From an uncultured Burkholderiales bacterium (GTDB taxonomy: Bacteria; Pseudomonadota; Gammaproteobacteria; Burkholderiales; Thiobacillaceae), in the NCBI GenBank assembly GCA_938038385.1, contig CALHRD010000022.1, forward strand, positions 1 through 64,000: a stretch of DNA of 64,000 nucleotides. Reading direction: 5' to 3'. Of the stretch, positions 30,506-53,623 are shown piece by piece. How positions within the stretch are numbered: position 1 is the stretch's first letter; each line of letters starts with the position of its first letter. The position numbers were made by a program, and so were the translations under genes. The notes under the pieces were generated by a model. That model saw only the letters and a list, made by a program, of their open reading frames with translations, had not been told where the DNA came from and did no database searches.

Positions 30506-32551
30506 TCACTCCACTAAGGCCTTCAGGAGCGCATCCCTGGCGTCCTGATAGAACTGGATGTCCACTTTGGTTGCCATGTCGTCGGACAGGTCATACAACT
30601 GGCGGCGGCAGCCTACGGGTACCAGCAGGGCCTGGGCACCCTTTTCCACCGCGATTTCGGCGATGGTCACCGCATTGTGGATGGGTTCGATGGAGCCCCC
30701 CAGGTTGATTTCGCCAACCACGATGAGGCCGCCGCGCACGGACTTGCGCAATAGCGCCCCGCACAGCGCAATCAGGGAAGCCACTCCCAACTTCGCTCCG
30801 GTCTTCGAGGCATCAAAAGTGCGCAGCTGGATGCTGAACTCGTGCGCCCTTGGGTCACGGTCGCCGACGAGCTGGGCCGCCCTCGCGTATAGATTCTGCT
30901 CGGCGAACCGCACGGATTCCTGAAACGCCGGTGGTGTAGGCTTGTTGAGGATGCGTACGCCCGAGCCAGGTCCCTCGTTCACCTCGATGCGATACAGACC
31001 CGGATGGTCTTCCGCGCCGCCCGGGCTAATCGCCCACACCTGGCCAGGTTCCAGGGGGTCGCTGCCGATGCTGTTCTCGCTTTGCAGTTCGGGGGTAACG
31101 ACGAACTTCTCCACCCCATCCTCGGCCATGGTGTAGCTGAAATGGGTGTTGCGGAATTCCGCCGCACCGATGCGTTTCTGCTGTTCCTTGACCCGTCGAC
31201 GCACCTCCATCGCCAGCCGCACGGCCCACTCCAAGTCGGCATCGGGTACCTCGGCATTGGCGTCGGGATGAAGGAGCTTCAGCAGTCCGCTAACGGTCTT
31301 ATTGACCGCATTGATGTCGCGGCCGCTGAGCGCCCCGCCATAGAAGACCCGGTTCTGCAGCACGCCCACCCGGCTTTGGTTGCGCAGTTGCGTGAAACAC
31401 TCGGACAGGAAGTCGCTGACCAAGCCGAAGTGCTCGGTGAACAGCGCGGGATTGAGCTTGGGCACATCCCACCCCGGCAGATAGGCGTGGATGCGGTCCA
31501 TGAAGGCCGTGTCGTTGCGCATCTCCGGCGGAAGCGGCCCGAACAAATGGCTGATGCGCTGCTGGTGTTCCACGTCCACGTCAAAGTTGCCCACCAGGAC
31601 GATGCTGCCGTCTGCGCGGATGTTTTCCTTGCCCCGACTGAACTCGCCGGACTCCATGTAGCCCTTCATGATGTTCACGCCGTCCTTCTGGTCGAAGGAC
31701 ACTCCGGAAACCTCATCGAAGCAGACCACGTCGTACTGGCACACCAGACCCCGCTGACCGTTGGCGTTGTTGACGAACATCCGCGCCACGGTGGCCTTGC
31801 CGCCGGAGATGAGATGGGCATAGGGGGACACCTGCTGGTAGAGGTGGCTCTTGCCGGTGCCGCGTGGCCCCAGCTCCACCATGTTGTAATTCCGCTCCAC
31901 GAACGGGACCATGCGCAGAAACATGGCGTCCTTGGCGCGCTCATTGAGCAGCCCCGGCTCAAGCCCTACACTGCGGAGAATGAAGTCTTTCCACTCGTCG
32001 GTGGTAAAGCGCCTGCGGCCTTCCCCAAGCACCTGGAGCACCTCGCGTTTGGACAACTGGATAGCGCGCAGGCTATCGACGCCAAAGGGCCGTCCATGGC
32101 TTTCCTGGGCGATAGAACTGTCATAGCTCAGGGTGACCTCCGCATAGAAGCCTCCCGTCAGCATCCGCTCATGCTCCTTCACCAGCTCGGGCGCGATACG
32201 GACGTCGTTGAGCCGCAGGCTGGGCAATATGGCCACGTAGGAATCCGTCTTGGCATCTAACCGAGCGGTCACCAGGTCGATGATTTTGACGGAGCCGGTT
32301 TCCCGGGCGCGTGCCTTGAACAGCTCCTCCTCTCCGGCTCGCACGGTGCGGTCGCGGAGCTGCCGCTCTACGATGCCCAAGCCTTCCTGGATTTCATCCT
32401 CGTTCGTGGTGGCGCAGTAGCGGCCAAGCAGGAACTCGACGACATAAGTGGGCACCGGAAACTGGCGGCTGAAGGTTCGCACCAATTCCTTACGCACCAC
32501 AAAGCCTTCAAAGGCCTCTGCCGCTTTCCGGTCCAGTTCATCTAGCTGCAT
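30506..32551 (-). CDS. brxL: BREX system Lon-like AAA+ protein BrxL
   Basis: A 681-residue BrxL, the hallmark of type I BREX. An N-terminal helical DNA-binding region (1-200) precedes an AAA+ domain with Walker A GPRGTGKS (228-235) and Walker B DVVCFDEVSG, then a C-terminal Lon-protease-like fold (about 560-681; LGVASLIALCGALLRKSVRGG, GEINLGGSIEPIHNAV). The Lon catalytic Ser motif (GPSAG) is replaced by GAKLG, so peptidase activity is doubtful; BrxL is known as a DNA-binding AAA+ motor needed for defence. It is last of the BREX operon, 3 nt after pglZ. Confidence 0.96.
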   Translation of the reverse strand: MQLDELDRKAAEAFEGFVVRKELVRTFSRQFPVPTYVVEFLLGRYCATTNEDEIQEGLGIVERQLRDRTVRAGEEELFKARARETGSVKIIDLVTARLDAKTDSYVAILPSLRLNDVRIAPELVKEHERMLTGGFYAEVTLSYDSSIAQESHGRPFGVDSLRAIQLSKREVLQVLGEGRRRFTTDEWKDFILRSVGLEPGLLNERAKDAMFLRMVPFVERNYNMVELGPRGTGKSHLYQQVSPYAHLISGGKATVARMFVNNANGQRGLVCQYDVVCFDEVSGVSFDQKDGVNIMKGYMESGEFSRGKENIRADGSIVLVGNFDVDVEHQQRISHLFGPLPPEMRNDTAFMDRIHAYLPGWDVPKLNPALFTEHFGLVSDFLSECFTQLRNQSRVGVLQNRVFYGGALSGRDINAVNKTVSGLLKLLHPDANAEVPDADLEWAVRLAMEVRRRVKEQQKRIGAAEFRNTHFSYTMAEDGVEKFVVTPELQSENSIGSDPLEPGQVWAISPGGAEDHPGLYRIEVNEGPGSGVRILNKPTPPAFQESVRFAEQNLYARAAQLVGDRDPRAHEFSIQLRTFDASKTGAKLGVASLIALCGALLRKSVRGGLIVVGEINLGGSIEPIHNAVTIAEIAVEKGAQALLVPVGCRRQLYDLSDDMATKVDIQFYQDARDALLKALVE

Positions 32552-32554: not shown

Positions 32555-34885
32555 TCACTCCCCAATGACCGTGGGCTGCTTGGCGAGCAGTTCACCGGAT
32601 TCGTCGTATAGCACCACGAAGGCCGCTTGCCCCTCGGCCTCGTCGTTCGAGACGACCAAGGAGACCTTTCCATCCTGCACAAGCTTGGCAGTAGTGGCCA
32701 GCGTAGAAGCGGCATCGGCTGCTTTCGCGCGGATATCCGCCCACACGCCAAAGGCATTCCCCTGCACCTCGATTCGGCAGCGCAAGCCATTCCAAACGAT
32801 GGCCTTGACCTCCACGGAAGGCTTGCTCTGCCCCGAGGACTTCGTCTTGACGTTGATAACCGGTATCAGCGACTCCTGCAGGCTCAGGCCTCCATGGGCG
32901 TACTCCGCCCCAGCGATGAAGCTGGAAATGCCGGGTGCCATTGCGATGGGAACCTCCGGTGCCCAGCCCCAGCCCAGGGCCAGGAAATCGGTCTTGGCGT
33001 TTTCCTTCAGCACGGCGCACCGTCCCCAGCGGGTGTCCGCCATGTACTTGGGCAAGTCCACCTTCGGCATGCCCCCCGGCACCAAGAGCCAGCCATGGTC
33101 CGTCACCACCCGAATGTGCCGCCAACCGGCCTCGGCCAGTTCCTGGATGCGCTCAACAATCGGCGGGAGAAGGCGCTCCATGTCCCGCGCCAGCTTGATG
33201 CCGTTCTGGTGTCCGTAGTTGTCCAAATCTCCCACCTCGGTCCAGGCCTTGCCGCTTGCATCCCCGCTGTCGCTGGAGGTCAGGTATTGCCAGCCTTCCT
33301 CGGCCAATAGGCGTCGGAAGTGATGCGTGTTGAGCGCCTTGCCTTCGCCTTTCACACCCGGCTCAAAATCGCTGTCGGACGCGCTGCCCGTTACGCGATG
33401 CGCAATGGGCGAAACCCAAGGCTTGCCAGATGCCGTCACCGAAGGCACGGAGGTCCAGGCGGCATCGAGTTGGATGTCATGCCCGGCTGCCTGAAGCAGG
33501 GCAACCAGCCGGTGCGCAACGTCGTAACGCAGGCCGTCCACGAAGACCATGCACAGTCCCGCCACATAGGCGGCCGGCTCAGGCTCCTTTAGGACCGGGC
33601 TGCCGCCAATGCCGCCTTCCAACTTGGCCTGCTCCTGCAGGCGAACCGCGCTTTCCTCAAGCCAAGGCAGATAGAGGGTACGCAAGACCGTCTCCACCGC
33701 CGCCAGGTCAGGTTTCGTGTGCACGCACCCCATTGCCGAAACGGCAGCGCTGTCGATATGCCACATTTGTTCGCGGTAACGCGCAGCCATCGCCGCGACG
33801 TTGCCAGAGAGGGGTGAGCTTGCCAGCGCGCCTAACTTCGCCAGGTGTTCCAGTGCCTGGGCCAACGGCGCCAACCCCATCTGCGCCCAGATCTGGTGCC
33901 GGCGCTCGGCATGTCGTCCTTCCAGTTCCACCAGTTTTTTCTGGGCGTCGGTCCGGGTCAATTGGGCAAAGCTGCCCAGTTCGGCACGCAGCGCGGCTTC
34001 AGCATCGTCGTTGGCCTTTGGGTAGCCCGAACAGTCGGCAAACATATCCGCTGGCAGGCTGACACGACGCAGCAAATCCAGCACGTGCGGATAGCGCGCA
34101 TAGGCCTCGGCATAGCGTTCCCACACCTGGCTCCATGCCCCTTGCCGCGCCGCAAGCCGCTCTGCTGCCGTGAGTTCGCCGTCCTTCTCAGGATGCAATC
34201 CCAGGTCCTGACGGCAGCGCCCGACAAAAGCCGCCCAACGCCCCTCACCCCAGCTGGTCCGAGTGGCGTTCGGGTCGTTCATCCATGTCAGCACGTCGCG
34301 CACGGGGTCGGCCACCAGGAGGTGGTCGAAGTCGGCAGCCTTCAGGTGCTTGCCGGCGAGCTGTTCGATGGGGGTATCCATCAGGGCATCCAGCGCCCTC
34401 AACATGGCCTCCTGGCTTGCCTTGTCTTGACCGACTTCCAGGCCCAACCCGCCTTTTTTCGAACTTAGGAAGGCATTGACCGTCCAGTCCTTGGCATTCA
34501 CCTGGGTCCAGAACACGCCGCGATACTGCAGTTCGGCTATGGGCTGAAGATGACGCGGGCAACTCTCGATGGCGCGCAGGTCGGCTCTACTCACGCCGGG
34601 CAGATACAGAACAGGAATCCCTTCGCCCAATGCCACTTCTGGCAGCTTCCCGGCCAATGCGCACTTGAGCCAAATCGCTGGCCCCTGCAGTGCAGCGAGG
34701 TCGTACTCGCCCAGGCTGAGTATGGGCATGCCAGCTGCCCTCAAGCGGCTGACAACCGAAGTCCACTGACGCTCGGCATCCGTCCACAGGATGGCCACAG
34801 GCCCGTCCTGCACGCTCTTGTTGAACTTGGCTGCGTCGGCTAGCGCCACTTGCAGCGCATTGAAGAGGCTTGGCTTTGCGCTCAC
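32555..34885 (-). CDS. pglZ: BREX phosphatase-like protein PglZ
   Basis: A 776-residue PglZ of the alkaline-phosphatase superfamily, essential for BREX methylation and exclusion. Metal-site segments are seen at VFVDGLRYD (Asp450), SVPSVTASG (Thr) and VVTDHGWLLV (Asp-His). The C-terminus is a beta domain (about 680-776). GTG at 34885 is chosen: it overlaps the stop of the DUF262 gene (GTGA) with GGGAG just upstream, indicating translational coupling. A longer frame opens at 34957 but would run far into the neighbour. The sequence looks closest to the type B PglZ of type I BREX; the subtype is uncertain. Confidence 0.92.
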   Translation of the reverse strand: MSAKPSLFNALQVALADAAKFNKSVQDGPVAILWTDAERQWTSVVSRLRAAGMPILSLGEYDLAALQGPAIWLKCALAGKLPEVALGEGIPVLYLPGVSRADLRAIESCPRHLQPIAELQYRGVFWTQVNAKDWTVNAFLSSKKGGLGLEVGQDKASQEAMLRALDALMDTPIEQLAGKHLKAADFDHLLVADPVRDVLTWMNDPNATRTSWGEGRWAAFVGRCRQDLGLHPEKDGELTAAERLAARQGAWSQVWERYAEAYARYPHVLDLLRRVSLPADMFADCSGYPKANDDAEAALRAELGSFAQLTRTDAQKKLVELEGRHAERRHQIWAQMGLAPLAQALEHLAKLGALASSPLSGNVAAMAARYREQMWHIDSAAVSAMGCVHTKPDLAAVETVLRTLYLPWLEESAVRLQEQAKLEGGIGGSPVLKEPEPAAYVAGLCMVFVDGLRYDVAHRLVALLQAAGHDIQLDAAWTSVPSVTASGKPWVSPIAHRVTGSASDSDFEPGVKGEGKALNTHHFRRLLAEEGWQYLTSSDSGDASGKAWTEVGDLDNYGHQNGIKLARDMERLLPPIVERIQELAEAGWRHIRVVTDHGWLLVPGGMPKVDLPKYMADTRWGRCAVLKENAKTDFLALGWGWAPEVPIAMAPGISSFIAGAEYAHGGLSLQESLIPVINVKTKSSGQSKPSVEVKAIVWNGLRCRIEVQGNAFGVWADIRAKAADAASTLATTAKLVQDGKVSLVVSNDEAEGQAAFVVLYDESGELLAKQPTVIGE

Positions 34886-36567
34886 GCCAGCTCCCATTTT
34901 TCTGTAAGCAGACCTAGCAAATCTGCCTGCCGCTTCTGGACGATGGCCGGCGTCCATTCCCGGGTGTTGAGCACCTGGGTGGTTAGAACGTAAGACGAAA
35001 CCCCGCTGCGCCCGACAAAGTACGCCTTCTTCTTGGCCTCGAAATCATAGTTCTGTGCAGCTGAATTGCGACGCTGATTCAGGGGCACCAAGTTCGCAAG
35101 ACGGTGAACCCAGTTCAACCGCTCATCTGCCGAAGGCCACCATGCCGCCCACTGTGACCCCTCGGCAACCGTCTGCGGCAACACATGCTCAATAGTTAGC
35201 AGCATTGGGTCGTAACTGGCCGCGCCATCGGACAGGAAGGAGTCCAAACGCAGCATCAGGTAGTTCCGACGGCGCGCGGTCATGAGGTAAACATTCCCAT
35301 CGAGCGCGCGCCGCATGGCATCCTTCTCGTCTGGGCTCAGGTCGACCTCGACTACCGGCGATGCCATCGAATGCGGCGCTTCAAGCGCTCGCAAAACCGA
35401 TGCGTAGCGTTCAATCCGCGAGTTCACGTCATAGGCGCAGACATGCATGACTGCCGCCAGGCGCTCCAGCTTGCGGAGAAACCAAAGAACGTAAGCCGCA
35501 TCCGAAGCCTTGTCGGCCAGAAATTTCATGGCGGAAGGCAGCCAATCCGAGTTGTCGATGCGGTTGAGCCAATGCAGCAGCGCATTCACCTCGGCGGCAT
35601 TGGACGTCGATGCATATTGGCACTGCTTGGCGATGAGGTAGGCGTCCGTGTAGGGCTGGACCACTTTGGTGACCAGGTCTTCTGCGGAAGATGCCTTGGC
35701 GATGACCTTTTCGCGGAACTCCTCCAGCAAGGCACGCCGCGCTTTCTCCTTCGCGTAAATCATGCGGATGTGGCCGAAGACCTCAGCGAATCCGTCCCGA
35801 CCCGTCTCGACTTCCAACTCTTCCCAAGCTTCCGTGTACTCATCCTGCTTGGCGGGGGCGATGCTGCCGATGATGTCTGACTTGATGATGTCGGTCGGCA
35901 GCAGGTCCAAGCCGCGGCTGTTCAGCACAGAGAAGACCCGGAAAGCTGACTGCTGGCTGGGCGTGGAAACGGCCACCAGAAAACAGCGCTGCACCAGAAA
36001 CGAACCGAACTCGACCAAGCGTGGGATGTCATCTGCAAAGTGCATGTCGATTCGCTGCATGAAGAGTTCCGCATTGCGCCGTATGTTTCGCTGCGACTCG
36101 TTGTCCAACTGGGCGGGGTCAAGAGCCACCAACTCCTCGAGCCGGAGCCCCTGCACGTAGTCCGAAAAGAACTGTCGGTCCCGTTCGCGCAATGCGAGAC
36201 GAGGCTTGGGCTTAAGGCCTTGGGAAGCACGCCCAGGCTCTCGGATATAGCTCTCGAAGTCAGCCCGCAAATCACCGTCGAAGCGTGAGGTAATGGCCGC
36301 AAGCAGAATGGTCAGCGTGGTCAGCCGTTGCTGGCCGTCAATGACCTCGGCGTTCGGATGACCCTCGTCCTTGATAAGGACGATGCTGCCCAGGAAGTAG
36401 GTATCGTCCTTCTCCTTCAGGAAGAAGTCATACAGGTCGGAGAACAACTCGCCCGCCTGCACCTCGGTCCAAGCGTAGGGCCGCTGATACGACGGGATGG
36501 AGTAGTCAAAGTCCGAGCTGAAAATCTTCGCGAGAGGATATTCGGCGCCGCTGATTTTCTTGGTCAT
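34882..36567 (-). CDS. DUF262-DUF1524 GmrSD/BrxU-like restriction nuclease
   Basis: A 561-residue single-chain GmrSD-type enzyme. The N-terminal DUF262 (ParB/Srx-like NTPase) carries IPSYQRPYAW and the signature IDGQQRLTTL (residues 76-85). The C-terminal DUF1524 has an HNH-type nuclease core, TIEHVLPQ, then LANLVPLNQRRNSAAQN. Such type IV enzymes cut modified phage DNA; BrxU, a homologue, accompanies BREX in other bacteria and covers phages that evade BREX by modification. The ATG at 36567 is chosen by homology over an upstream frame extension. It is embedded between hsp70 (11-nt gap) and pglZ (4-nt overlap). Confidence 0.85.
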   Translation of the reverse strand: MTKKISGAEYPLAKIFSSDFDYSIPSYQRPYAWTEVQAGELFSDLYDFFLKEKDDTYFLGSIVLIKDEGHPNAEVIDGQQRLTTLTILLAAITSRFDGDLRADFESYIREPGRASQGLKPKPRLALRERDRQFFSDYVQGLRLEELVALDPAQLDNESQRNIRRNAELFMQRIDMHFADDIPRLVEFGSFLVQRCFLVAVSTPSQQSAFRVFSVLNSRGLDLLPTDIIKSDIIGSIAPAKQDEYTEAWEELEVETGRDGFAEVFGHIRMIYAKEKARRALLEEFREKVIAKASSAEDLVTKVVQPYTDAYLIAKQCQYASTSNAAEVNALLHWLNRIDNSDWLPSAMKFLADKASDAAYVLWFLRKLERLAAVMHVCAYDVNSRIERYASVLRALEAPHSMASPVVEVDLSPDEKDAMRRALDGNVYLMTARRRNYLMLRLDSFLSDGAASYDPMLLTIEHVLPQTVAEGSQWAAWWPSADERLNWVHRLANLVPLNQRRNSAAQNYDFEAKKKAYFVGRSGVSSYVLTTQVLNTREWTPAIVQKRQADLLGLLTEKWELA

Positions 36568-36578
36568 TTTGTTTGCGC

Positions 36579-38408
36579 TTACGAAACCCCATGACCTGCA
36601 TTGGCACCCACTTTTGGCAACCCGTTGGGGAAGGTGGCACATCGGCATAAAGGATCATTAGATGGACGGCCACAGAGGGAGCAGGGTTCGTAGTAAAGCT
36701 TTTCCTCCACTTGCAACTGAGGCGGGTAATGCCTTACGTCAAAATACGCCCGATTGAACCGATACAAGACTTCGCCAGGCACCAGCCACAAGTCCTCATC
36801 TGCGGCAATGTTGGAGCGCATGGCCAAACTACCTGGCTCATGCGACGCTTTCGATTCAGCCGTGTCATCAAATGATTCCTCACCCAGCCAACCGCGTTCC
36901 CCTGTCGGCAGGGCGAGGGCGAATTCAAGGTCATGGATTTCTGCTTCTGCAATGCCGCGTTGATTCAATGAACGAGCCGTCGCCTTCAAAATAAGATTTT
37001 CATCCACTGACACGTCCAAGCTCAGACGTTCACGGAAAGGTGCTGCCTTTTTATCCACAGGAACAATCAGGTTGGCCAAGTGGCGGCGCGTGTCATTTGG
37101 CAGAATTTTTGGGCCAGGCCTTCTCGGGGCCATTAACTGAAACTTCCCATAACCGTCAGTGGGATCGACACAGTACAGACTGAAGTTTTCGCTACGCGTC
37201 TCGTTCTCTTGTGGCATCTCCAGGCCGGCCGTCAGCAAGGGCATGTAAGAATTACGCGCAAGCGCCAGCTCCACATTCTTGGCGAGATGCAGCCGCGCAT
37301 CGTCATTTGCCACCCACGCTGCCCCCTCCGAAATCAGCGACGCCGTGCGATCGGATATATGCACCCGTTGCGGACCAAAAAGCTGGTGAAGGCGCGATCT
37401 GATGATTGGCATATTCGCCATCCCGCCGGTTGCCAAACACAGCGCAACCGACGTCGTCGAACAACCCTGTCCTTCTAGCAGCTTCTCAATTCGCGCAATG
37501 CCCGCATCGATCAGGTGCGCCACCATGTTTTCCAGGTCGTCCCTAGAAAGCGGAAAATCCAGGTCGGGATCTTCAAGTCCATGAAAAAAGTTGGGGACAT
37601 ATACGTTCACTCGGCTGCGCCTGCTCAAGTCTATCTTCGCCCGTTCACATGCATGCATCAGACGCGGGCGTGCCTCAGGGCTTGCCATAACCTCTTCCCC
37701 CAGTGCACGGGCATCCCGAACGCGTTTTTCCACCTCGTGCTTGAGAGCGTCATCAAACAAATCCCCCCCCACCTCATCGGTACCGTCGTTGGCCACTTGG
37801 ATAAGCATGCCGTCCACCAACCGGCACAGAGTCAAATCCAGAGTGCCACCGCCCCAATCGAAGACCAATATCAGTTGCCGGTCGTAACGGCGAAGGGTAG
37901 CTGCAAAGTCCTCGCTGGTTCGCAAGAATCCATACAAAGCCGCCAACGGCTCATGGACAAACTGGACGATGCTCATTCCCGCCATTCGAAAGGCATCCCT
38001 CAGAAGCGCTCGACGGTGCCCTTCCATATTCACAGGGATGGTAACCACGGCCTTATCGACTTCGAGATTTTTGACAACACGGCTGGCCAAGGCTTGCTCG
38101 CGCACATATCCCACCACGTCGGCCACAATATCGACAGGATTGCGTTCCACGCCGCCCACGAAGACACTTTCTTTGCCGAGCAGCGTCTTAGGCGAGCGCA
38201 CAACATTGCCTTGCACACCCAACCCTGCTTGCCCCAAGCGTTCGCGCGCTTCCCGCCCGACAATCGTCTGTGTTCCCTCGTAGCACACGACGGATGGAAT
38301 GGGCAGGCCCTGTTCATCGGCAAAACTGATCACACGATCCCCTTGCACGATGGAGATAAGGCTATTCGTCGTACCAAAATCGAAGCCAACGACTGCCATC
38401 TCAGTCAT
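36579..38408 (-). CDS. divergent Hsp70-family ATPase with C-terminal cysteine cluster
   Basis: A 609-residue Hsp70-like protein, not housekeeping DnaK. Nucleotide-binding motifs are kept: phosphate-1 VVGFDFGTTNSLISI, phosphate-2 LVFDWGGGTLDLTL, adenosine LCLATGGMANMPIIRSRL and the EPLAALYGF helix. After about residue 380 comes a beta-rich region that may be a reduced substrate domain (LSLDVSVDENLILKATARSL). The helical lid is lacking, and a zinc-ribbon-like cluster (Cys576, 579, 588, 590) replaces the DnaK tail. It overlaps the coiled-coil gene by 8 nt. A role in defence as an ATP-driven sensor or assembly factor is inferred from position only. Confidence 0.85.
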   Translation of the reverse strand: MTEMAVVGFDFGTTNSLISIVQGDRVISFADEQGLPIPSVVCYEGTQTIVGREARERLGQAGLGVQGNVVRSPKTLLGKESVFVGGVERNPVDIVADVVGYVREQALASRVVKNLEVDKAVVTIPVNMEGHRRALLRDAFRMAGMSIVQFVHEPLAALYGFLRTSEDFAATLRRYDRQLILVFDWGGGTLDLTLCRLVDGMLIQVANDGTDEVGGDLFDDALKHEVEKRVRDARALGEEVMASPEARPRLMHACERAKIDLSRRSRVNVYVPNFFHGLEDPDLDFPLSRDDLENMVAHLIDAGIARIEKLLEGQGCSTTSVALCLATGGMANMPIIRSRLHQLFGPQRVHISDRTASLISEGAAWVANDDARLHLAKNVELALARNSYMPLLTAGLEMPQENETRSENFSLYCVDPTDGYGKFQLMAPRRPGPKILPNDTRRHLANLIVPVDKKAAPFRERLSLDVSVDENLILKATARSLNQRGIAEAEIHDLEFALALPTGERGWLGEESFDDTAESKASHEPGSLAMRSNIAADEDLWLVPGEVLYRFNRAYFDVRHYPPQLQVEEKLYYEPCSLCGRPSNDPLCRCATFPNGLPKVGANAGHGVS

Positions 38409-39651
38409 CTCCTTTTAGTTGCTTGATTTCCTCACGCAAAGCCTCGGTCACTCGCTCGGCATGGTCAATCATGATATGTACCTTCGGTGGGTTTCTGGTC
38501 AGCGCCTGCAAGCCCTGTTCCAGCATTCTTACGTCAGCATCCAACCGCCTCAGCAGCCGCGTACGCTGCTGTTCCAGGTCGTGACGCAAATGTGCAGCCT
38601 CTGTTCCGGCATCCTTACGTACGGACTCGATCTGCCCCTTGAGTTCAGCCTCGGTTCTTTCCAGGGCTGCCCGTGCCTCCTCAATTGCTGCATTGGCAGA
38701 TGCTAGTTTCGCTTGCAGGCTGGCGACTTGCCCCCGCAAGTCTTCCGACTGGCGCGCGGCCGCTTCGCTTGCCACAAGGCATTCATTAGCCTGACGTCTA
38801 TAACCCTCACAGGCCACGCCGATTCCCGCAAAGTCGGCCATGCCGGTCAAGGCTTCTAGTTTGCTGGTGTCTGTGTCCAGCTTTTTGGCGGCTGGCGCCC
38901 AGAGGGTGGCGTACAGCATATCGATCACATTGGGGAGGGACAGTCCTCTCGTCTCCGCGAGCCAGATCGCCAGGCAATTTGCAGCGTTCGTGCGTAATTG
39001 ATTAAATTCCGAGTCTTTCAAGAACTTAGCCTGTTTCTCGGCAAGGCAACCCTTGGTTGCTTGAACCAAGGCTTTCAGCCCCATTTCTGGGGGGAGAGCA
39101 CCCTCCAAGTTGCTTATCGCGGCTTGCAAGTCACTCTGCGAAAACAGCGGGTGTTCCAGCATCCGCTCTCGCACGAATTCACGCAGTGCGCCGCGCAATC
39201 CGGGATAGGCCTCAACCTGTCTCGCCACCAGCAAAAGCTGCCGCGGCACGGCAAAAAGTTTGTCTCTATTAACAAGCTCGGATAGCCGCTTAAGTGCCTC
39301 TTCAGACAGACGCGGATCTTGGGCGATTTGCCGTTCGACCTTGGCTTTTAGCGGAACTCTTTTCCCTTTCAACCGGTAGGCATGGGCGATAAACTGCTCC
39401 AAATTCTTGATTTCATTTTTCGGCTTATTGGAAGACTGTTTGTTGCCCTTCTTTGCCTGCTCAGAAGTACCCCCTGCCGATTCACTGGCCTTTCCTGCAG
39501 CATCCGGACTGTTCGCTTGTTGTTCATCACCCGCCCCCGTCTCTCCAGGAGCAGCTTGCTGCCCGCTCGGCGGCGGATAAGGATTAGGCTCTGAATAGCG
39601 GGTCAAGCCGCTCTTCGCATCGGTGATTGGTATGCGCTTATCTTCGGTCAT
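38401..39651 (-). CDS. coiled-coil protein of the BREX-embedded cassette
   Basis: A 416-residue protein with no recognised domain. Residues 1-80 are Ser/Gly/Pro/Gln-rich and probably disordered. Residues 85-270 are helical (LEQFIAHAYRLKGKRVPLK; ALREFVRERMLEHPLFSQSDL). Residues 280-410 form a long coiled coil (LRGQVASLQAKLASANAAIE; RTRLLRRLDADVRMLEQGL). The ATG at 39651 is preferred to GTG at 39654. It lies 11 nt after the zinc-finger gene and overlaps hsp70 by 8 nt. A coiled coil beside an Hsp70 may serve as nucleotide-exchange or scaffold partner (GrpE-like in concept); no homology supports this. Confidence 0.75.
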   Translation of the reverse strand: MTEDKRIPITDAKSGLTRYSEPNPYPPPSGQQAAPGETGAGDEQQANSPDAAGKASESAGGTSEQAKKGNKQSSNKPKNEIKNLEQFIAHAYRLKGKRVPLKAKVERQIAQDPRLSEEALKRLSELVNRDKLFAVPRQLLLVARQVEAYPGLRGALREFVRERMLEHPLFSQSDLQAAISNLEGALPPEMGLKALVQATKGCLAEKQAKFLKDSEFNQLRTNAANCLAIWLAETRGLSLPNVIDMLYATLWAPAAKKLDTDTSKLEALTGMADFAGIGVACEGYRRQANECLVASEAAARQSEDLRGQVASLQAKLASANAAIEEARAALERTEAELKGQIESVRKDAGTEAAHLRHDLEQQRTRLLRRLDADVRMLEQGLQALTRNPPKVHIMIDHAERVTEALREEIKQLKGDD

Positions 39652-39662
39652 CACTGTTCTCT

Positions 39663-40766
39663 CTATTTGCCCAGGCCTGCAGCACTCAAGCGCTCCGCCC
39701 AGCGGGCGGCAACAGGCACATTGATCAGGCTGCGCGCCGTTTTCTTTGCTAGCGTCATGTCACCCGCGGCTGCCGCTGCCTCCGCCAGCAGAATGGTCAA
39801 CTTCAAGCGGTCGTATTCAAGCTCGTCGCGCTTGATCAGCGCCGATATGTTCTCGATTTCACCCGCCAATTCGTTCGCGGGCATCTCCACCCAACGAAGA
39901 ATACGCAGCGTCTCGAAATCGGTTAACAGATCCTCTAGCACGCTGTCATTGTGCTGTTCAGCCCTATCTATCGCTTTCCAAGAGGCAGATTTGAGCGCGG
40001 CTGCAAACTGCTTGGACGCCCTCTGCAGACGGCCTGGCGGCGCAAAGTCCGCTGCGTCGGCGAAATGGTTGAAGTGAAAAGCGATCAGCGCCTGCACCAG
40101 GCGACCGAGCCGTCTATCGTAGTCTTGTAAAGCTGACGCCGCTTGATTGAAGCGGTCCACATAGGCTTCGTAAGGAAGCGAGGTGCTGGCATCCTTTTCC
40201 TTGGCCATCACCCCATACAAGTACTGGCAGATGCTGTCGTAATAGGCCTCGGCGGTGGTATACGGCTTGCATTTTTCGATGAAGGATTCCACGGTCTTGG
40301 CGGTGAGCTCCTTTTTCTTGGCCAATTCCAGGAAGCACGCCTCGACACCTTTCAGATCCCTTTCCTGAGCGATGGAAATGTCCAACTCGAACACCGAGCG
40401 AGCACCCTCATTGATGAGCTCGACCCTGACCTTGTCACGGTTGATCGAGGCCAGCCGGGCCGGCACATCCTTTGGAGGGACTCTCTGATCGTTGACGAAA
40501 GCATCCGTGCAGCGCTCCAAAACAAAATCCGATGGCGAGGCCGTTCTGGACAGCCGAAATGGCGTCGTTCCCAGTTCGATCCCCCTCACAAATAGCTCGG
40601 GTCTTCGGGAAGGATGTGCCTCAAATCGGTGGCGGCGAAGCGCATCCATGGTGTCGAAGCGCTGCTCACAGTGTTTGCAGGCGTAAACAGGCTTTTCCGG
40701 GACATAAGTGACCCCCAGCCCGGTTGGCTCATGAAACTCGATGTACCCCGTATGCCAAAACCCCAT
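39663..40766 (-). CDS. C2H2 zinc-finger protein of the BREX-embedded cassette
   Basis: A 367-residue protein with a canonical C2H2 zinc finger near the N-terminus: Cys30, Cys33, His46, His51 in YACKHCEQRFDTMDALRRH. C2H2 fingers are uncommon in bacteria and suggest DNA, RNA or protein recognition. The rest (90-367) is helical with no recognised fold (EACFLELAKKKELTAKTVES; YDRRLGRLVQALIAFHFNHF). AAGGAGG lies 6 nt before the ATG, the strongest ribosome binding site in the cassette. It starts 16 nt after pglX. Function unknown; it probably acts with the next two genes. Confidence 0.78.
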   Translation of the reverse strand: MGFWHTGYIEFHEPTGLGVTYVPEKPVYACKHCEQRFDTMDALRRHRFEAHPSRRPELFVRGIELGTTPFRLSRTASPSDFVLERCTDAFVNDQRVPPKDVPARLASINRDKVRVELINEGARSVFELDISIAQERDLKGVEACFLELAKKKELTAKTVESFIEKCKPYTTAEAYYDSICQYLYGVMAKEKDASTSLPYEAYVDRFNQAASALQDYDRRLGRLVQALIAFHFNHFADAADFAPPGRLQRASKQFAAALKSASWKAIDRAEQHNDSVLEDLLTDFETLRILRWVEMPANELAGEIENISALIKRDELEYDRLKLTILLAEAAAAAGDMTLAKKTARSLINVPVAARWAERLSAAGLGK

Positions 40767-40782: not shown

Positions 40783-43700
40783 TTATTCTTTATGAGCCGC
40801 TCGCTTTTCCGCCAGCGTCAAATGGTGGTCGTTGATGCGGTCGCCCTTGAACACCTTGAACCAGGGGGCCGACTCCACGTCCTTGCCCCGGTCTTTGTCC
40901 CACTTGATGTTGAGCTTGGGCGGTTTGTTGTGGCGCAGGACCTCGGCGGTCATGAAGGGGCGGATGTTGAGGCGCACGCCGTCGTTAAGGTCGGGGTCCC
41001 AGCCGATGGGTTGGCTCTCCAGGGGCTTCCAGCGGACGAAGATGTCGTAGGGGGCTTCGCCTTCGAGGATTTTCTCCAGCTTGGCCTTCAGCGACTGCGC
41101 GGCGGCCAGGCGCAGGTCGGCGCCGTCCACGCCGTCGCGGGCGGCGCGTTCCTGGGTGCGTATCCAGTCGCCCAGGTAGGTGTAGATGAGCGTCTCCAAG
41201 TTCTTGCGGTCGAGCTTGTGGTAGTTGACCAGGGCCGCGAAGCCGTCCTTCAGGCCGTCCCAGACGTGCCAGATGAAGGGCCGGTGGTGGAAGCGCTTGC
41301 AGTGCTGCTCGAAGAAGCGCTCGCGCAGCCAGTAGTCCAACCCCTTGCCGGCGCAGTCAGCCTGGTCGAGCAGTTTGTCCAGGGTGCCTTGCTGCCAGTC
41401 CGCGCCCCAGGCGGCGATGAGCAGGTCCAGCAGGCGTTCGGCGGCCGGTTTTTCGCCGCGCACCGGGGGCAGGCAGACGATGCCGTCGTCATCGGCCAGG
41501 GCGGCGAGCTTGGCCGACTCAGCAATCCAGGCATGGGCCTCATCGGAGAGTTCCATCTCGGCGTCGGTCTCCGCCGGCCAGCGGTAGCCCAGCAGACGGG
41601 CAACGGCCACCTGCAAGGGGTCGGTGGCCGGCTTGGGATGGCCGTGGAATATCCACTGGGTGGGGTCGTCGGAGTAGGGTTTGGGCAGGCCGTTGGGATA
41701 GCGCTCGGCGGCGACTTGCTGCCAGTGTGCGAGGTCGAAGGGGACCTTGACCAAGGTGGCATTAGTCACGTTCATTTTCTGATTTATTTTTCTAACTTCC
41801 CGCCCATATTCGCCGCCTTCGCAATACACCCACAGCGCTGGGAGGTTAGCCTCATTCAACAACGTAATTACCGCACAGTTGCAGTCGAAACGGTCACCCG
41901 AATACAGGGTGACAGGTAGTTGGCCCATCTGGCTAACCACTACCCCATGCTTGCTCCAAGCAGACTTACCCCTGAATGTTGCGCCCTCCTGACACACTTC
42001 CGTAATAGCGCCGTATCCATCTTCCCAGAATAGAATCGCTGAGCGACCACCAAACGACCGCGTTTCATTGACGGTACTTTGGAAGAGAACCCACCCACCG
42101 TGTATAGCAGGAATCTCCCATAAGCCACGTTGAAAGCGCGGTATATCCGAGGTCGCGATTCCTTGCCATGCATTTCCGTAGTTCAAGAGCAACTCGCCTG
42201 TGCCCCGCTCCTGCAAGGAAATAATGCTGTCTGGATTCTTGAGCTGGGCGGATTGAAGAAAGAGTTGAGGAGCAAGAGCGCGTAAAGCGTGGGCCTTTTT
42301 CGTCGCCCCTTCGACGCGTGTCAAATCAAGGCCGAAGAAGCGGTGAGCTTCTGTTGGCTGCTGGTTGGATAGCGCAAGCAACAGACTCTGTACGACTTCA
42401 CCAGAAATGGTTTCAAAAGCCCCAGACCCCAACTGAAAGAGTGCCAGAACAGATGTTTCACGAAGTAAATGAGCGCGCTGTTTAGCGTACCGGCTAAGAA
42501 ACAGCCAGTTCTGGGGAATGACCACCTGAACCACACCCCCTTCCTCCAGCGCCAAGTCCAAGTTGCGTTCCAGGAAGACATTAGCCAAGTCCTGTTTTGC
42601 ATGTGGATAGTGGGCGTCGCAAAAATCCTTGAGATGGTCGGACTGCCTGCCTCTTGCTAGATACGGCACATTGGTAATGACCAAGTGGTAACGCTGGGCC
42701 AGGATGCGGGCGGCATCCAGCAAGCCCTGGGCACTCACAGCGGCATCCCAGAGGTCTTGGCTGTCGTTCAACAGGCCTGCCCGCTCCTGGGTCAGGGCGG
42801 TGCTGAGCATGGCATGAAGGCCAGCGTAGTCACTAGTGGCCAGGTCGTTGCGCAGGCTGCGCCAAGGGTCGAGCAGGCTTCCGAGGAGCGGCGCCTCGCG
42901 CATGCTGGCGTGGAGCAGCTTCAGGTCCTGGCGCAGCAGGACGGCATGAGGCGCGTCGTCCGGCACCAGCGCGGCCCAGTCCTCGGCTTTGGCCGAAACC
43001 TTGAGGCCGCAGCAGGCGATGTTGAGGGCCGGCAGCACGCGGTAGCCCAAAGGCTTGCCCTCACCCCCGGCCCCTCTCCCGCTTGCGGGAGAGGGGAGGT
43101 CAGGGTAAGTCCACGCGGCCAGGGCCAGGGCGAAGGCGGCGATTTCCACGCAGCGGGGGTCGATTTCCAGCCCGTGCAGGTTGTCGGCGATGACCGCATC
43201 CACCGCCTCGCGCGCGCTGAGCCCCTCCGCCTGCATGCGCATGGGCACCAGCAGGTGGAAGGCGGCGACGATGAAGTGGCCGGAGCCGCAGCAGGGGTCG
43301 AGGAGCTTGAAGTCCTTGAGGGTGTCGGGCCAGCCCTCGAACTTGCCGGCGGCGGGCGTGCCGTCTTCCAGCGTCCTGAGATAGGCCAGGTCCACTGGGC
43401 AGGGCTCGCCGGGGTGGCGAGTCTGCCACCACGCGCCCAGCGAGTTGTGGAGCAGGAACGCCACCATGTAGGGCTCGGTGAAAAGCTGGGTGACGGCGGG
43501 GAGTTCGTCGGCGCCGATTTTCACCTCGGAGGCGTTCACCTCGTCCTTGCGCTTGGCCTGCCAGAACTGATAGACCCAGCCCAGGCTATCGGAGGCGCGG
43601 AAGGTGTCCACATCCAGGCCGGAGACGAGCTTGGCCAGTTCGCGCTGGTGCTCGGGGGCGAGGCGTAGCTGCAGGGCCGGGGCGTCCTTGCGGAAGACCT

Positions 43701-44121
43701 GGGGCAGCATGCGGGCGGCGTAGCGCCCGGCCAGTTCCCAGCCATCCAATGCGCCTTCGTCCTTGGCGAGTTCGTCGCAATCGGCCAGGGAGACGGCCAC
43801 GCCGTCCGGGTGCATGAGCAGGTTGTTTTCGGCCAGGAACCGGGCGAAGAGCATGCGGTGCCAGTGCTCGTAGGCGACTTCCCAGACCAGGTGGCGGATG
43901 TCCTGCCGTTCGTCCTTGTGCTTGACGTCGCCCAACTGGCGGCCGTGCAGGCGCAAGCGCCGGCGCAGTTCGCGCTGCTCTTCGGTGAGGTGGGCCGGCG
44001 CGCTGGGTTCACCGATGCCCAGGTGTTCCAGGGCGGCGCGGGCGGCGGTTTCGGCGACGTCACGGGCCGCCTTGACGGTGTTTTCCAGGCGGGTGCGCAG
44101 GGGTTTGCTCAGGGGCTTCAT
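40783..44121 (-). CDS. pglX: BREX adenine-specific DNA methyltransferase PglX
   Basis: A 1112-residue N6-adenine methyltransferase of type I BREX, which marks host DNA at the BREX site and helps block phage replication. SAM motif I is LDPCCGSGHF (274-283) and the catalytic NPPY-type motif is NVPY (484-487). The C-terminal half is probably the target-recognition region. The ATG overlaps the vapC stop (ATGA), so its translation is coupled to the toxin gene. Oddity: residues 343-356 (PSPASGRGAGGEGK) are encoded by a REP-like palindrome inside the gene. Confidence 0.96.
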   Translation of the reverse strand: MKPLSKPLRTRLENTVKAARDVAETAARAALEHLGIGEPSAPAHLTEEQRELRRRLRLHGRQLGDVKHKDERQDIRHLVWEVAYEHWHRMLFARFLAENNLLMHPDGVAVSLADCDELAKDEGALDGWELAGRYAARMLPQVFRKDAPALQLRLAPEHQRELAKLVSGLDVDTFRASDSLGWVYQFWQAKRKDEVNASEVKIGADELPAVTQLFTEPYMVAFLLHNSLGAWWQTRHPGEPCPVDLAYLRTLEDGTPAAGKFEGWPDTLKDFKLLDPCCGSGHFIVAAFHLLVPMRMQAEGLSAREAVDAVIADNLHGLEIDPRCVEIAAFALALAAWTYPDLPSPASGRGAGGEGKPLGYRVLPALNIACCGLKVSAKAEDWAALVPDDAPHAVLLRQDLKLLHASMREAPLLGSLLDPWRSLRNDLATSDYAGLHAMLSTALTQERAGLLNDSQDLWDAAVSAQGLLDAARILAQRYHLVITNVPYLARGRQSDHLKDFCDAHYPHAKQDLANVFLERNLDLALEEGGVVQVVIPQNWLFLSRYAKQRAHLLRETSVLALFQLGSGAFETISGEVVQSLLLALSNQQPTEAHRFFGLDLTRVEGATKKAHALRALAPQLFLQSAQLKNPDSIISLQERGTGELLLNYGNAWQGIATSDIPRFQRGLWEIPAIHGGWVLFQSTVNETRSFGGRSAILFWEDGYGAITEVCQEGATFRGKSAWSKHGVVVSQMGQLPVTLYSGDRFDCNCAVITLLNEANLPALWVYCEGGEYGREVRKINQKMNVTNATLVKVPFDLAHWQQVAAERYPNGLPKPYSDDPTQWIFHGHPKPATDPLQVAVARLLGYRWPAETDAEMELSDEAHAWIAESAKLAALADDDGIVCLPPVRGEKPAAERLLDLLIAAWGADWQQGTLDKLLDQADCAGKGLDYWLRERFFEQHCKRFHHRPFIWHVWDGLKDGFAALVNYHKLDRKNLETLIYTYLGDWIRTQERAARDGVDGADLRLAAAQSLKAKLEKILEGEAPYDIFVRWKPLESQPIGWDPDLNDGVRLNIRPFMTAEVLRHNKPPKLNIKWDKDRGKDVESAPWFKVFKGDRINDHHLTLAEKRAAHKE
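43058..43106. repeat. REP-like palindrome inserted in pglX
   Basis: The core is a perfect inverted repeat, CCCCTCTCCCGC-TT-GCGGGAGAGGGG, at 43071-43096, flanked by CCCTCACCCCCGG and AGGTCAGGGT. This form is familiar as an intergenic REP element of proteobacteria. Here it lies in frame within pglX, between motif I and the NVPY motif. Confidence 0.8.
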
Positions 44122-44522
44122 GCAGCGGCCAACCAGTTTTCCAGCTTGAGACCGGGGTAGTCCTTAAAGTCGGCTTCGTTGTTGGTCACCAGGGTAGCGC
44201 CAAGGCTCAAGGCATGGGCGGCGATGAGGCGGTCCATTGCATTGCGGCGGCGGTCCGGGACGATGGCACGTAGGCGGCCATAGGCCAGGGATGCCGCCAC
44301 ATCGAAGGGCACGATGGGAACACGGCTCACAATCATGTCGAGCACCATTTCATCTCGCGCGCGGTTGGCGGCCTGCATCTCAATGCCCGCCCGCAATTCA
44401 GCATGCGTCACGGCCGACATGACGGCCTGCCCCTGTCGCAACCCTTCAAATCGAGTACGCAACGAAGGGGGATGCTGCTTGGCGAGGTAGATGCAGATAT
44501 TGGTGTCGAGCATGTACAGCAT
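44118..44522 (-). CDS. vapC: VapC-family PIN-domain toxin
   Basis: A 134-residue PIN-domain ribonuclease. Acidic residues are in place: Asp6 (MLDTNICIYLAK), Glu near 42 (THAELRAGIEM), Asp near 97 (NAMDRLIAAHAL) and the TNNEADF end. VapC toxins cleave tRNA or rRNA. It follows vapB by 3 nt and overlaps pglX by 4 nt. Placement between brxC and pglX, on the operon strand, means loss of the BREX transcript would also deplete its labile antitoxin. Full length. Confidence 0.92.
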   Translation of the reverse strand: MLYMLDTNICIYLAKQHPPSLRTRFEGLRQGQAVMSAVTHAELRAGIEMQAANRARDEMVLDMIVSRVPIVPFDVAASLAYGRLRAIVPDRRRNAMDRLIAAHALSLGATLVTNNEADFKDYPGLKLENWLAAA

Positions 44523-44525
44523 CGC

Positions 44526-44801
44526 TCACCCCTTGCTTGCCTTGCTGGAGTTGTTTGCAAAGACGCCACTCCAATCACGCTCATGCTCTTCATGGAACTC
44601 GCGCCCTTCCGCCATGAAATCGGGGCTGAACATGGCGAATACGTCCATCAGGTCAGCCAATGTCTTCGTTTCCACCGGCTTTACCACCAGGGTGTTGCCG
44701 ACACGCTCGATTTCGACCTCCTGGGAGGCTTCGACGATGGCCAGTTCCTTGGGGATGCGGATGGCGAGGGAATTTCCACTCTTGAATACACGGGTCAGCA
44801 T
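44526..44801 (-). CDS. vapB: VapB-family antitoxin (AbrB-like)
   Basis: A 91-residue antitoxin with an N-terminal AbrB/SpoVT swapped-hairpin DNA-binding domain (MLTRVFKSGNSLAIRIPKEL ... VEIERVGNTLVVKP) and an acidic, helical C-terminus (about 50-91) that would mask VapC. Two adjacent ATGs occur; the second, at 44801, sits better behind GGAGG. The 53-nt gap after brxC is the widest in the operon and could hold a promoter or operator for vapBC. Confidence 0.9.
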   Translation of the reverse strand: MLTRVFKSGNSLAIRIPKELAIVEASQEVEIERVGNTLVVKPVETKTLADLMDVFAMFSPDFMAEGREFHEEHERDWSGVFANNSSKASKG

Positions 44802-44854
44802 CATGGCCTCCTGAAACCAATGTATATACAGGATATACCGCGTAGGTGGTTGGT

Positions 44855-47800
44855 TCAACCTGGGATGACTGGCCCGTGTTCGAGCTGCTTGAGCAGGGCG
44901 GTCTCGGCTTCCGCCAGCCAGGCCTTGACCTCGTCGGGGCTGTTGAGCGCACGGCTGGGCAGGCTAACCCGCCGGACGGTGGGCATGAGCTTGCGCGCAG
45001 CGGCGAGACGAGCTTGGTCAAAGCGGCTGGCCAGGGCCTCGCGCCGGTCCGCCCAACGGGCCAGGGGGCAATCGTCCAGGGCCTGTTCCAAGGCGGCGGC
45101 GGAACTCATGTCCGGTATCTGGGCGGGTTCCAGACCAGCTTCCTTTAGGAGAAGGGTCTGGTCGGCGGCGCTCAGCTTCTGCCAGGACTCATCGGCCTGG
45201 AGGGCGCTCAGACGTTGGGTGTACTCGTCCTGGAAAGCCTGGACGTGGTGGTTCAGTGAGCGGCGGAGCAGGTCCACCGTTTTTTCCAAAAGGGCCTGGA
45301 CGGGGTCGGGGTTGGACAGCAAGGCGCGCTGGTCGGCGATAGCCTTGGCCTCTTGTGCCAGGTCGGCGTAAGGGCCGAGTTCCTTGGCTTGCGCGAGCAG
45401 GCTGGTCAGCTGCACCCAATTGGGCCAGCGCTTGTCGATGGCTTGAGCGGCCTGCTGCCAGGCCTGGGCTTCCGCCAGGAGCTTGTCCTTGTCGGCATGC
45501 AGTTGTACCAGCAGGGTGTTGCCGGTGAGCTGTTCGAGCTGGTTCAGATGCGCCTTGTCCGGGACAGCGGGCTTGGGGGCATCGCCGCCGGCCCGGTCGG
45601 CTCGGGATTTGAGTTCTTCCAGCAACAGCATGGCCTTCTGCAGCTCTTCCTGGGGCTGGCAGGGAATGCCCAGGTCCTGCATGAGCTTGCGCAGCTGGAT
45701 GAGTTGCACCGGGGTGATGGTGACGGACTCCGGCTTGAAGGTGGTCTGGGTGAGCTTGTTGCGCTCCAGGCCCTTGGCATCCACCGCCTTGTGCGCCGCA
45801 TCCAGCGCGCGCAAATGGCCGCTGGCCAGCAGCGCATAGAGCGCGCCGTCCACCGCATCCTGCGGCCAGCCATAGGGCGGCCCACGGAAGTGGTCGCGGA
45901 TTTCGCTGCCTTTCTTGCTGCCGGCGATGTACTTCAGTATCGCGGCGCAGACCGGGTGTTTGTCGGTGTCGCCCTTGTAGCCGACGGCTTCCAGGGCTTG
46001 GCTGTCGTTCTTGCGCGCCCGGTCCAGGACTTTGTCCCAACCGGTCTGGTCGGCCACGTCGAACTGGGGATAGAGGCGGATGACGGATTTTTGCCCAGCG
46101 GCGGTGAGCTTGCCGGCCAGGTCGTCGGGGTCGGTGACCTCGGTGCCGCCCGCCTGGAAGACGCGGGCGCCGGCGAATACCTCACCAAGCAGCGTCTGAA
46201 TCTGGCGCTCGGCGGCGTTGAGTTTGGTGGTCATCGCGCTGCGGGCTTCCTCTCCCTCGGGAGTGGAGGGCATGCCTTTGACGTCCAGCGTGGCCCTGGC
46301 CGCCTTCATGGCGACGATGGCATTGGCCAGCTCAGTCTTGTTGCGGGCGGGCAGGTAAACGAACAGGCTGGGGTCGCTGTTGCCGACGGCGCGGGCCTCG
46401 GCCAGGAAGGATTTCTCGTCGGTCTGCCAGCCATCCTGAATCCAGGCGACGATGCGCTCGGCGTGGTCCTTGGGCAGCTCGGCGTCGAAGCTCGCGGAGA
46501 GGTCGCGCGCCTCCTTGCCTTGGGAAAGCCGCACCTGGCGCAGGATATCCAAGGCCTGCTTGCGGAAAAGGTCGGCACGCTCCTGCTCGATGCGGGTGAC
46601 GGAGCTCTTGAGCTCCGATTCCTGGTGCCGGTATTCGTCCTGCCAGGCGCTGCTCTCGCGCGTTTGCAGGCGGTATTCCACCCCGTGGGTCGTGGTGATG
46701 CCCATGACCAGGCCGGCCTTCTCTTGCAGTTCGTGCAGCAGGTCGGGGATGCGCTTGCGCAGGTCGGCCGAGCCGGCGGGCAGGTCCACCACAAGCAGGT
46801 CGGCCAGGGTGTCGGCGGTGGCGCGTACCCCGGTATCGGCCACGGCCTCCGTGGGCAGCTTGCCGATGAGGTAAATCAGCTTGAGCAGACGCGCCTTGAG
46901 CGGGTCGTCGCCCTTGCCGGCAGCCAGGGCCTCGATGTGGTTGTAGGCCTCGCGCGACAGGGCGGCGGTTTGCAGCAGGCTGATGGCGTTCTGGTCGTAG
47001 ATGAAGTCGCCCGGCACCACATGGCCCAGCGGCTGGTCACCGGTGGCGATGACGGCTTCATGCACTACGCGCAACTGGTTGCGCAGCTGGGCCACCGTGC
47101 CCGTGGTGTCCACGGCGCGCATGACCCGCTCCCAAAAGCGGCGACGCACCGGCAGGATGGGATAGTCGGCCACCATCACTTCTTCGTCGGCGACGGTGTG
47201 CTCCAGCTTGGTGCCGTGGAGGTGGCGCGAAATCTCGCCGAGGCAATCCTGTAGGACCTGTTCCACTTTGGGCACCGCGCTGGGTTTCTTGGCCAGGATG
47301 ATTTCGCGGATGACACCCTCCACGTCCGTGTCGGACAGGGAGACCTGGATCGGGAAACGGCCCAGCAGCTTGGACAACGTGGGCGTGCCGGCCAGGGCGG
47401 TCTGCCCGGTGCCGACGAAGAGCAGCCGGCCGCCGAAGTGCTTGCAGCAGGTCTCGACTGCCTCCTGCAGGCGGTAGGCGCGGTCGGCGCTGTCGCCGAT
47501 GTATTGCTGCACCTCATCCAGGACGATGACCGTGAGGGGGAACTTGTTGTCGTGGGCCAGGGCATCGTGGATGGCGTCCACGAGCTCGTCGTTGGAAAGG
47601 TCGGTGACCTCGCGGTATTGGTCCTTGAGGAGCATGCGGGCGTTCTTGGCGTTGTCCGCGAAGTCCGGATAGACCTTGAGTAGCGCGCTCGCCAGCACCG
47701 GGGAGACGTACATCTCCTTGAGCTCGCGCTCGAAGCTCTCGCCCTGGGCCTCGACTTCGGCCTTCAAGGCGTCCAGCAGACCTTTGCCCTTGAGCCAGAG

Positions 47801-49696: not shown

Positions 49697-49920
49697 GGCT
49701 ACTGAACTCTGGCGCCTGAGCACTGATACCCCATCCGTACCTGCGGGAGTTTAGATGCGAAGGGCCGGCTATGCATGCTCGATGCGAGTTGTCGTTGCCA
49801 GCTATTATGGCCTGAGCTTCGCGCTTGGAATCCTTGTATGTTCGCGCGTCTTAGACATGTGCACAGGCTCGCCGAAGGCTCGCTATATAAGGTGTTACCT
49901 TTTGTTTTGTCGTCCCCACG

Positions 49921-51599: not shown

Positions 51600-51675
51600 A
51601 CCTTCGTCTCCATAAAAAGTTGGGGACGGGTATAGCCACCGGTCAGGCAGGTCAGTCTCAGCTAGAAAAACACGC

Positions 51676-51693
51676 TGTGACAAAATGTGCCAA
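51676..51693 (+). promoter_or_regulatory. candidate integrase arm-type site, right end
   Basis: TGTGACAAAATGTGCCAA, 17 of 18 identical to 24495-24512 and in the same orientation. It lies between the integrase start and the right att repeat, 60 nt from the latter. Function inferred from pairing. Confidence 0.5.
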
Positions 51694-51753: not shown

Positions 51754-51810
51754 TGGTGCGCGGGACGGGAATCGAACCCGTACACCCGAAGGTTCCGGAT
51801 TTTAAGTCCG
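51754..51810. repeat. right attachment site (57-bp direct repeat)
   Basis: Exact copy of 24334-24390, lying within the intact tRNA-Leu gene and covering the anticodon arm, variable arm, T arm and CCA end. It marks the integrase-proximal end of the island. Confidence 0.95.
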
Positions 51811-53622: not shown

Positions 53623-53623
53623 A

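Follow-up and report, generated by a model that had tools for sequence, protein, structure and literature searches.

Three adjacent minus-strand genes, encoding a C2H2 zinc-finger protein (ZF), a coiled-coil protein (CC) and an Hsp70-like protein (HSP70), are a real conserved module and not a chance association. They were found in a 64,000-nucleotide (nt) stretch of DNA from an uncultured Burkholderiales bacterium (contig CALHRD010000022.1, hereafter referred to as the window), where they lie between pglX and the gene of a GmrSD nuclease, inside a complete type 1 BREX (bacteriophage exclusion) operon. Many unrelated phage-defence systems contain or adjoin the cassette, and for this reason it is probably a module in its own right, serving defence or aiding it. 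It may well be a self-contained, horizontally mobile, chaperone-type cassette serving phage defence and carried here as cargo in the BREX slot between PglX and PglZ. The anti-phage activity of the trio, the contacts among its proteins and its mechanism are what we infer from sequence and genomic neighbourhood.

The ZF gene (39663–40766) codes for 367 amino acids (aa), the CC gene (38401–39654) for 417 aa and the HSP70 gene (36579–38408) for 609 aa. They are tightly packed. The distance between pglX and ZF is 16 nt, CC and HSP70 overlap by 8 nt, and CC begins either 8 nt after ZF, at its first GTG, or 11 nt after it, at the ATG that directly follows this GTG. An initial annotation of this DNA had listed the same three genes at this place, with spacings of 16 and 11 nt and an 8-nt overlap; all three open reading frames (ORFs) and these values were reproduced, 11 nt being valid for the ATG start of CC. 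The longest ORF of the GmrSD gene begins 70 nt within HSP70, and an internal ATG just 3′ of that point is the likelier start.

Conservation and genomic context of the trio

A search with ZF among bacterial genome contigs returned 32 loci. The order ZF-CC-HSP70 on one strand was present in all 26 genome loci in which ZF is full-length and the downstream sequence is sufficient; viral contigs were counted separately. Locus L054 appears to be the same contig as L003, with equal length and a sequence check in agreement, and L064, judging by length, the same as L011. Hosts span at least four phyla; among them are Beta- and Gammaproteobacteria, Acidobacteriota, Nitrospirales, Candidatus Binatia and Actinomycetota. 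The initial annotation had named co-occurrence in other genomes as the check on a module and restriction of the trio to this locus as its refutation; the former was observed at every testable locus and the latter failed. Almost all junctions within the trio fall between −70 and +12 nt, which suggests translational coupling. In one locus (L015) HSP70 is split over two frames. Pairwise protein distances co-vary strongly (r 0.93 for ZF and HSP70, 0.89 for CC and HSP70), the pattern expected of a cassette that is passed on and transferred as one unit.

A search of viral contigs with HSP70 found six contigs. Two carry full trios and three carry distant trios, of which two are cut by the contig end and two have a middle gene that has diverged beyond the reach of the CC profile; the sixth has only a match of 25% identity and no recognised ZF or CC. 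Copies of the trio occur on viral contigs, and also on integrative elements and on one conjugative plasmid. The trio is rare: leaving the genome of the window aside, the ZF search found it in a single genome of the 397 sampled in the phylum, and the HSP70 searches in one of 398 sampled for the order and one of 368 sampled for the class.

The recognised neighbours of the trio are diverse. In the window and in L012, L015, L016, L020 and L055 (the last a distant trio) it occupies the PglX/PglZ slot of a BREX operon. In the viral contig L034 it follows PglX, the end of the operon that was looked at. Together with L034 and the BREX remnant of L003, BREX loci holding the trio number eight, and in L008 the trio lies beside BREX. 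Elsewhere it is found inside an Hma operon (L010; HmaA, two small genes, the trio, HmaB, HmaC), with a DUF1156 methylase and a phospholipase-D-like (PLD) helicase (L004), with HKD-Snf2 (L023) and directly behind PtuA-PtuB of Septu (L002). It adjoins PsyrT in L005, a LeoA-like dynamin in L022 and a type I restriction-modification enzyme in L007. A dynamin-family GTPase of about 970 aa with a C-terminal MIT_C (phospholipase-D-like) domain is present in seven trio loci, directly upstream of the trio in six and in the slot between BrxC and PglX in one.

This GTPase (L004:7054–9978, with equivalents in L005, L008, L012, L017, L021 and L023) is without a defence-system model of its own, and its MIT_C domain has relatives at the C-terminal end of some BrxL proteins. 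In two further contigs, N-terminal fragments of ZF comprising its first ~77 residues stand directly after the BrxL gene (L029:10001–10297 and L030:4760–4990) and resemble the remains of a trio that stood next to BREX. In the actinobacterial loci L025 and L027 the trio is followed by a conserved coiled-coil protein of about 450 aa without a Pfam match (L025:6898–8262, L027:14235–15587), a possible fourth subunit. A hypothetical gene of similar size (~450 aa) follows HSP70 on the conjugative plasmid, Paenarthrobacter pA. The same plasmid (L051:8460–11995) has an IS3-family transposase gene between the 5′ part of ZF and CC, so that ZF appears to be interrupted; HSP70 is intact.

Several observations set the trio apart from BREX proper. 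No PADLOC 2023 family matched ZF, CC or HSP70, though the neighbouring BrxA, BrxB, BrxC, PglX, PglZ and BrxL were all matched, and no NCBIfam model gave a match above its cut-off for any of the three. On the HSP70 tree, the BREX label requires six changes, at least four of which are forced by strongly supported branches. In L003, PglX and BrxL persist only as fragments and PglZ was not found, while ZF, CC, HSP70 and GmrSD are still open. The guanine-cytosine (GC) content of the trio in the window is 55.8%, compared to 63–66% for the BREX genes; in L010 it is 56.8%, compared to 66–67% for HmaA and HmaC. A place for the trio in core BREX was ruled out by the lack of a BREX family model, a distribution mostly outside BREX and the HSP70 tree. 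On this point we agree with the initial annotation, which had held that none of the three is a core BREX gene. Its interpretation stands only in part: the trio is a conserved unit with an intact-looking ATPase, but to regard it as built into BREX is not correct, as most copies lie outside BREX and the BREX state has changed repeatedly; the phage-sensing or complex-remodelling role that it proposed is a putative one. By analogy, the position of the trio may be likened to that of a cargo module such as BrxU rather than that of a BREX subunit. BrxU, on another BREX island, was found by experiment to protect independently of BREX (PMC8565348). Like the trio, BrxU is cargo of a BREX operon, and a BrxU-like gene adjoins the trio in the window; unlike the trio, in which no nuclease is recognisable and of which most copies lie outside BREX, it is a single nuclease.

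Features of the HSP70, ZF and CC proteins

The identities proposed for the three proteins by the initial annotation were borne out by profile searches, conserved ligands and predicted structure. HSP70 matches PF00012 (2e-43) and is a member of the Hsp70 superfamily, having a nucleotide-binding domain with the catalytic residues. Residues D10, T13, K74, E153, D184, the GGGT motif, D216 and GG328-329 are invariant in 26 homologues, and among them are the counterparts of the catalytic Asp, Lys and Glu and of the phosphate loops in DnaK; ATP hydrolysis is therefore expected. Profile alignment to the DnaK and HscA of the same genome extends through the nucleotide-binding domain into the beta substrate-binding domain and ends before the helical lid. 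The hhalign comparison with DnaK (probability 99.9) reaches DnaK residue 501, with the substrate-binding part aligned with gaps. At 137.8 bits, HSP70 is below the DnaK equivalog cut-off of 822.55. Where the lid would be, there is a near-invariant C-x2-C ... D-P-x-C-x-C cluster (36639–36683, minus strand; C576, C579 and C588 invariant, C590 in 25 of 26), which is probably zinc-binding. Since the genome also encodes an ordinary DnaK with DnaJ, plus HscA, HSP70 is an extra paralogue.

ZF begins with a conserved peptide (40725–40766, minus strand) that starts, identically in the 28 aligned homologues, with MGFWHTGY and mostly continues with xEFHE. The eight identical residues are disordered in the structure model, with a predicted local distance difference test (pLDDT) score of about 35–40, and an N-terminus that is at once invariant and predicted to be disordered bears the mark of a docking peptide. 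A similar aromatic pattern, FGW...D..F, is kept at the ZF N-terminus in two of the distant trios; among viral contigs, the MGFWHTGY motif was present in two only, both of which carry the trio, and it did not emerge as a broader marker. The C2H2 finger follows (residues 28–53; 40608–40685, minus strand), with the pattern C-x2-C-x12-H-x4-H. Its ligands C30, C33, H46 and H51 are invariant in the 28 homologues and conform to the C-x2-C-x12-H-x3-5-H arrangement of C2H2 zinc fingers. In Pfam searches the finger of the window ZF is under the curated cut-off (E 0.002), and among the homologues only that of L010 is above it (zf-C2H2_6, 7e-6). The sequence of the finger, its helix included, is conserved and not variable, which favours a fixed partner over varied DNA specificity. 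Beyond the finger, the model contains a beta domain and then a TPR-like helical array at residues 135–367, for which the top structural neighbours in VIA-align are mainly TPR proteins (Z ≤7.8).

CC is predicted to consist of a short N-terminal hairpin, a disordered linker, a helical domain, a helix of about 110 residues and a C-terminal helix, with the strongest conservation at the C-terminal end of the protein. Foldseek returned no match with E <0.001 for the ZF or CC models, and there is no PHROGs family describing either protein.

The composition of the trio resembles that of DnaK-DnaJ-GrpE in combining an Hsp70 that has intact ATPase residues and a beta substrate-binding region with a zinc-binding partner and a coiled-coil partner; it differs in that a cysteine cluster takes the place of the helical lid. 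The HPD motif of J-domains was found in none of 28 ZF proteins, there was no J-domain Pfam match, and the best match of a GrpE profile to CC (E 3.6, in the coil region only) was not significant. With neither of these nor a lid, a true DnaK-DnaJ-GrpE set was ruled out.

In the predicted CoCoNuT defence operons, which sometimes share a superoperon with BREX, an Hsp70-like protein, CnuD, is combined with coiled coils; CnuD is fused or linked to McrBC-type genes and is described as having degenerate ATP motifs (PMC11090510). CnuD and CnuCD resemble the trio in pairing an Hsp70-like protein of nucleotide- and substrate-binding domains with coiled coils. CoCoNuT was nevertheless rejected as an identity of the trio: no McrB GTPase or McrC was recognised among the annotated neighbours, and the catalytic motifs of HSP70 are intact. 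For a chaperone that takes part in phage sensing, the closest functional precedent is DnaJ with bNACHT25. Phage sensing by bNACHT25 depends on DnaJ, so a host chaperone partner can be needed (PMC12169576). There, the DnaJ is the housekeeping one and the effector belongs to the NACHT type; the trio brings an Hsp70 of its own and has no NACHT protein. Hma, Septu, PsyrTA and DUF1156/PLD-helicase systems hold or adjoin the trio elsewhere, and their PADLOC models are without its proteins.

Open-access full texts, to which our literature search was confined, with supplements and subscription journals outside its scope, contained no paper naming the trio. Hsp70, DnaK and chaperone are absent from the main text of a 2026 survey of BREX (PMC12839542), and Hsp70 is absent from the DefensePredictor paper (PMC13092281). 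The initial annotation had no named defence system to offer for the trio, and within that scope and among PADLOC families none was found. On the evidence of neighbourhood and sequence, the composition of the trio appears to be new.

A possible chaperone machine and its alternatives

Because it is composed of an Hsp70 with catalytic residues, a zinc-binding adaptor and a coiled-coil partner, with no recognisable nuclease, the trio points to an ATP-driven protein-remodelling machine. In such a machine ZF would be the adaptor, with its finger, beta domain and TPR-like array selecting a target; this would most likely be a protein or nucleoprotein complex that belongs to the phage or has been hijacked by it. 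The invariant disordered N-terminus of ZF and the rod of CC, which may serve as a multimerising scaffold or as an exchange-factor-like partner, would dock the target onto HSP70. The ATP cycle of HSP70 would clamp the target and then remodel or sequester it, and the phage would be blocked directly or a neighbouring effector (for example BREX, GmrSD, dynamin-PLD or Septu) would be released. Known anti-phage systems mostly rely on nucleases, pores, NAD depletion or modification. We tentatively suggest that the trio represents a new class of prokaryotic immunity, a stand-alone chaperone machine, powered by ATP, which remodels phage proteins and so disables them, and which is portable into BREX, Hma, dynamin-PLD and other operons. 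If this is true, a dedicated anti-phage Hsp70 machine would be an added mechanism, linking proteostasis with bacterial immunity. Locus L003, with its decayed BREX and intact trio, is a natural starting point for studying the trio alone.

A number of observations weigh against a defence cassette of this kind. The trio contains no recognisable killing enzyme, such as a nuclease. Among the neighbours examined in L013, L018, L019, L024 and L035 there is no defence gene, and copies without a defence neighbour may have another role. The tally of neighbourhoods is a plain count with no formal background control; as a rough guide, if about one in ten genomes has one BREX locus, a random 20-kb locus would meet BREX well under once in a hundred. 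The contrast in GC content between the trio and its neighbours is absent in L012 and L016. The Z scores of ≤7.8 for the TPR-like array of ZF fall within the range of common arrangements, and Foldseek and VIA-align gave no convincing solved-fold match for CC, the VIA-align tests having covered little of the ZF model besides residues 135–367 and only part of the CC model.

The main rival to a phage-directed cassette is a private assembly chaperone that folds or assembles large neighbouring defence complexes (BREX, Hma, dynamin-PLD) and has no phage target. The intact catalytic residues and the substrate-binding-like region of HSP70 would suit this role, as would the fact that most of the recognised neighbours are systems with large proteins. 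The partner systems, however, are unrelated to each other, and with the trio present in about 1 of 400 relatives most BREX operons must manage without it. Copies without a recognised defence neighbour, and the one beside the wrecked BREX of L003, are also difficult to reconcile with such a helper, and a general folding aid should need neither an invariant zinc finger nor an invariant N-terminal peptide. We regard a private chaperone as unlikely. A role as a BREX accessory subunit, extending restriction or regulating it, for example as a sensor gating PglZ or BrxL, would explain why the slot after PglX is shared by seven BREX operons, the one with the distant trio of L055 included, and why PglZ follows wherever the sequence reaches. 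It is improbable in view of the majority of trio copies that lie outside BREX and of an association with BREX gained or lost at least four times on the HSP70 tree; moreover, GmrSD/BrxU in the same slot acts independently of BREX elsewhere (PMC8565348).

If the trio were a CoCoNuT-like sensor of nucleic acids or ribosomes, its Hsp70-like protein would bind aberrant or viral RNA and recruit effectors. The pairing of CnuD and coiled coils with defence operons provides a parallel (PMC11090510), and the C2H2 finger and the cysteine cluster could touch nucleic acid. Yet CnuD is McrBC-linked and described as degenerate in its ATP motifs, whereas HSP70 has kept the catalytic residues that were checked and no McrBC was recognised among the annotated neighbours; the finger, moreover, is conserved and not varied in sequence. 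We consider such a sensor quite improbable. Some copies ride on mobile DNA (a conjugative plasmid, viral contigs, integrative elements) and some have no defence neighbour found, which would also be compatible with a stress or maintenance function borne by islands or plasmids and merely hitchhiking in defence islands. A random passenger would be unlikely to stand within the gene order of BREX and Hma operons or to turn up repeatedly next to defence genes of unrelated kinds, and this explanation appears very improbable.

The BREX operon, its other cargo and the island

All genes of the operon are on the minus strand. The BREX genes were identified with PADLOC: brxA (48878–49723, E 1e-95), brxB (48331–48885, E 1e-75), brxC (44855–48313, E 0), pglX (40783–44121, E 0), pglZ (32555–34957, E 3e-296) and brxL (30506–32551, E 5e-304). 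The slot of the trio contains a second cargo, the gene of a GmrSD-family (BrxU-like, DUF262/DUF1524) type IV nuclease (34882–36648), located between the trio and pglZ. The interval between brxC and pglX is filled by a VapBC-like toxin-antitoxin pair (44118–44858), with a PIN toxin at 44118–44522 and an AbrB-like antitoxin ORF at 44526–44858. The same interval holds the dynamin-PLD GTPase in L012 and a HEC-02-like pair in L015. Since its genes differ among these three operons, it seems to be a second cargo slot. BREX operons may thus be a chassis in which at least two slots (BrxC/PglX and PglX/PglZ) exchange independent modules, and the 'BREX phenotype' of a natural operon may partly belong to its cargo.

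The last 57 bp of a tRNA-Leu(TAA) gene (51754–51838, minus strand), the integration site, are repeated exactly at 24334–24390. These direct repeats, the attachment sites on the tRNA side (51754–51810) and at the distal end, flank the operon next to a tyrosine integrase gene (50595–51683, minus strand), and for this reason we place BREX and its cargo on an integrative island that spans about 27.4 kb. The ZF gene was absent from the other 116 sampled genomes of the family, three of which belong to the same genus. A search for the empty integration site with joined flanks in 60 genomes of the family never found the flanks contiguous; in siblings they are on different contigs. Just beyond the island, at window positions 51943–60038, there are hydrogenase accessory ORFs (HypX-, HypE-, HypD-, HypF- and HypB-like).

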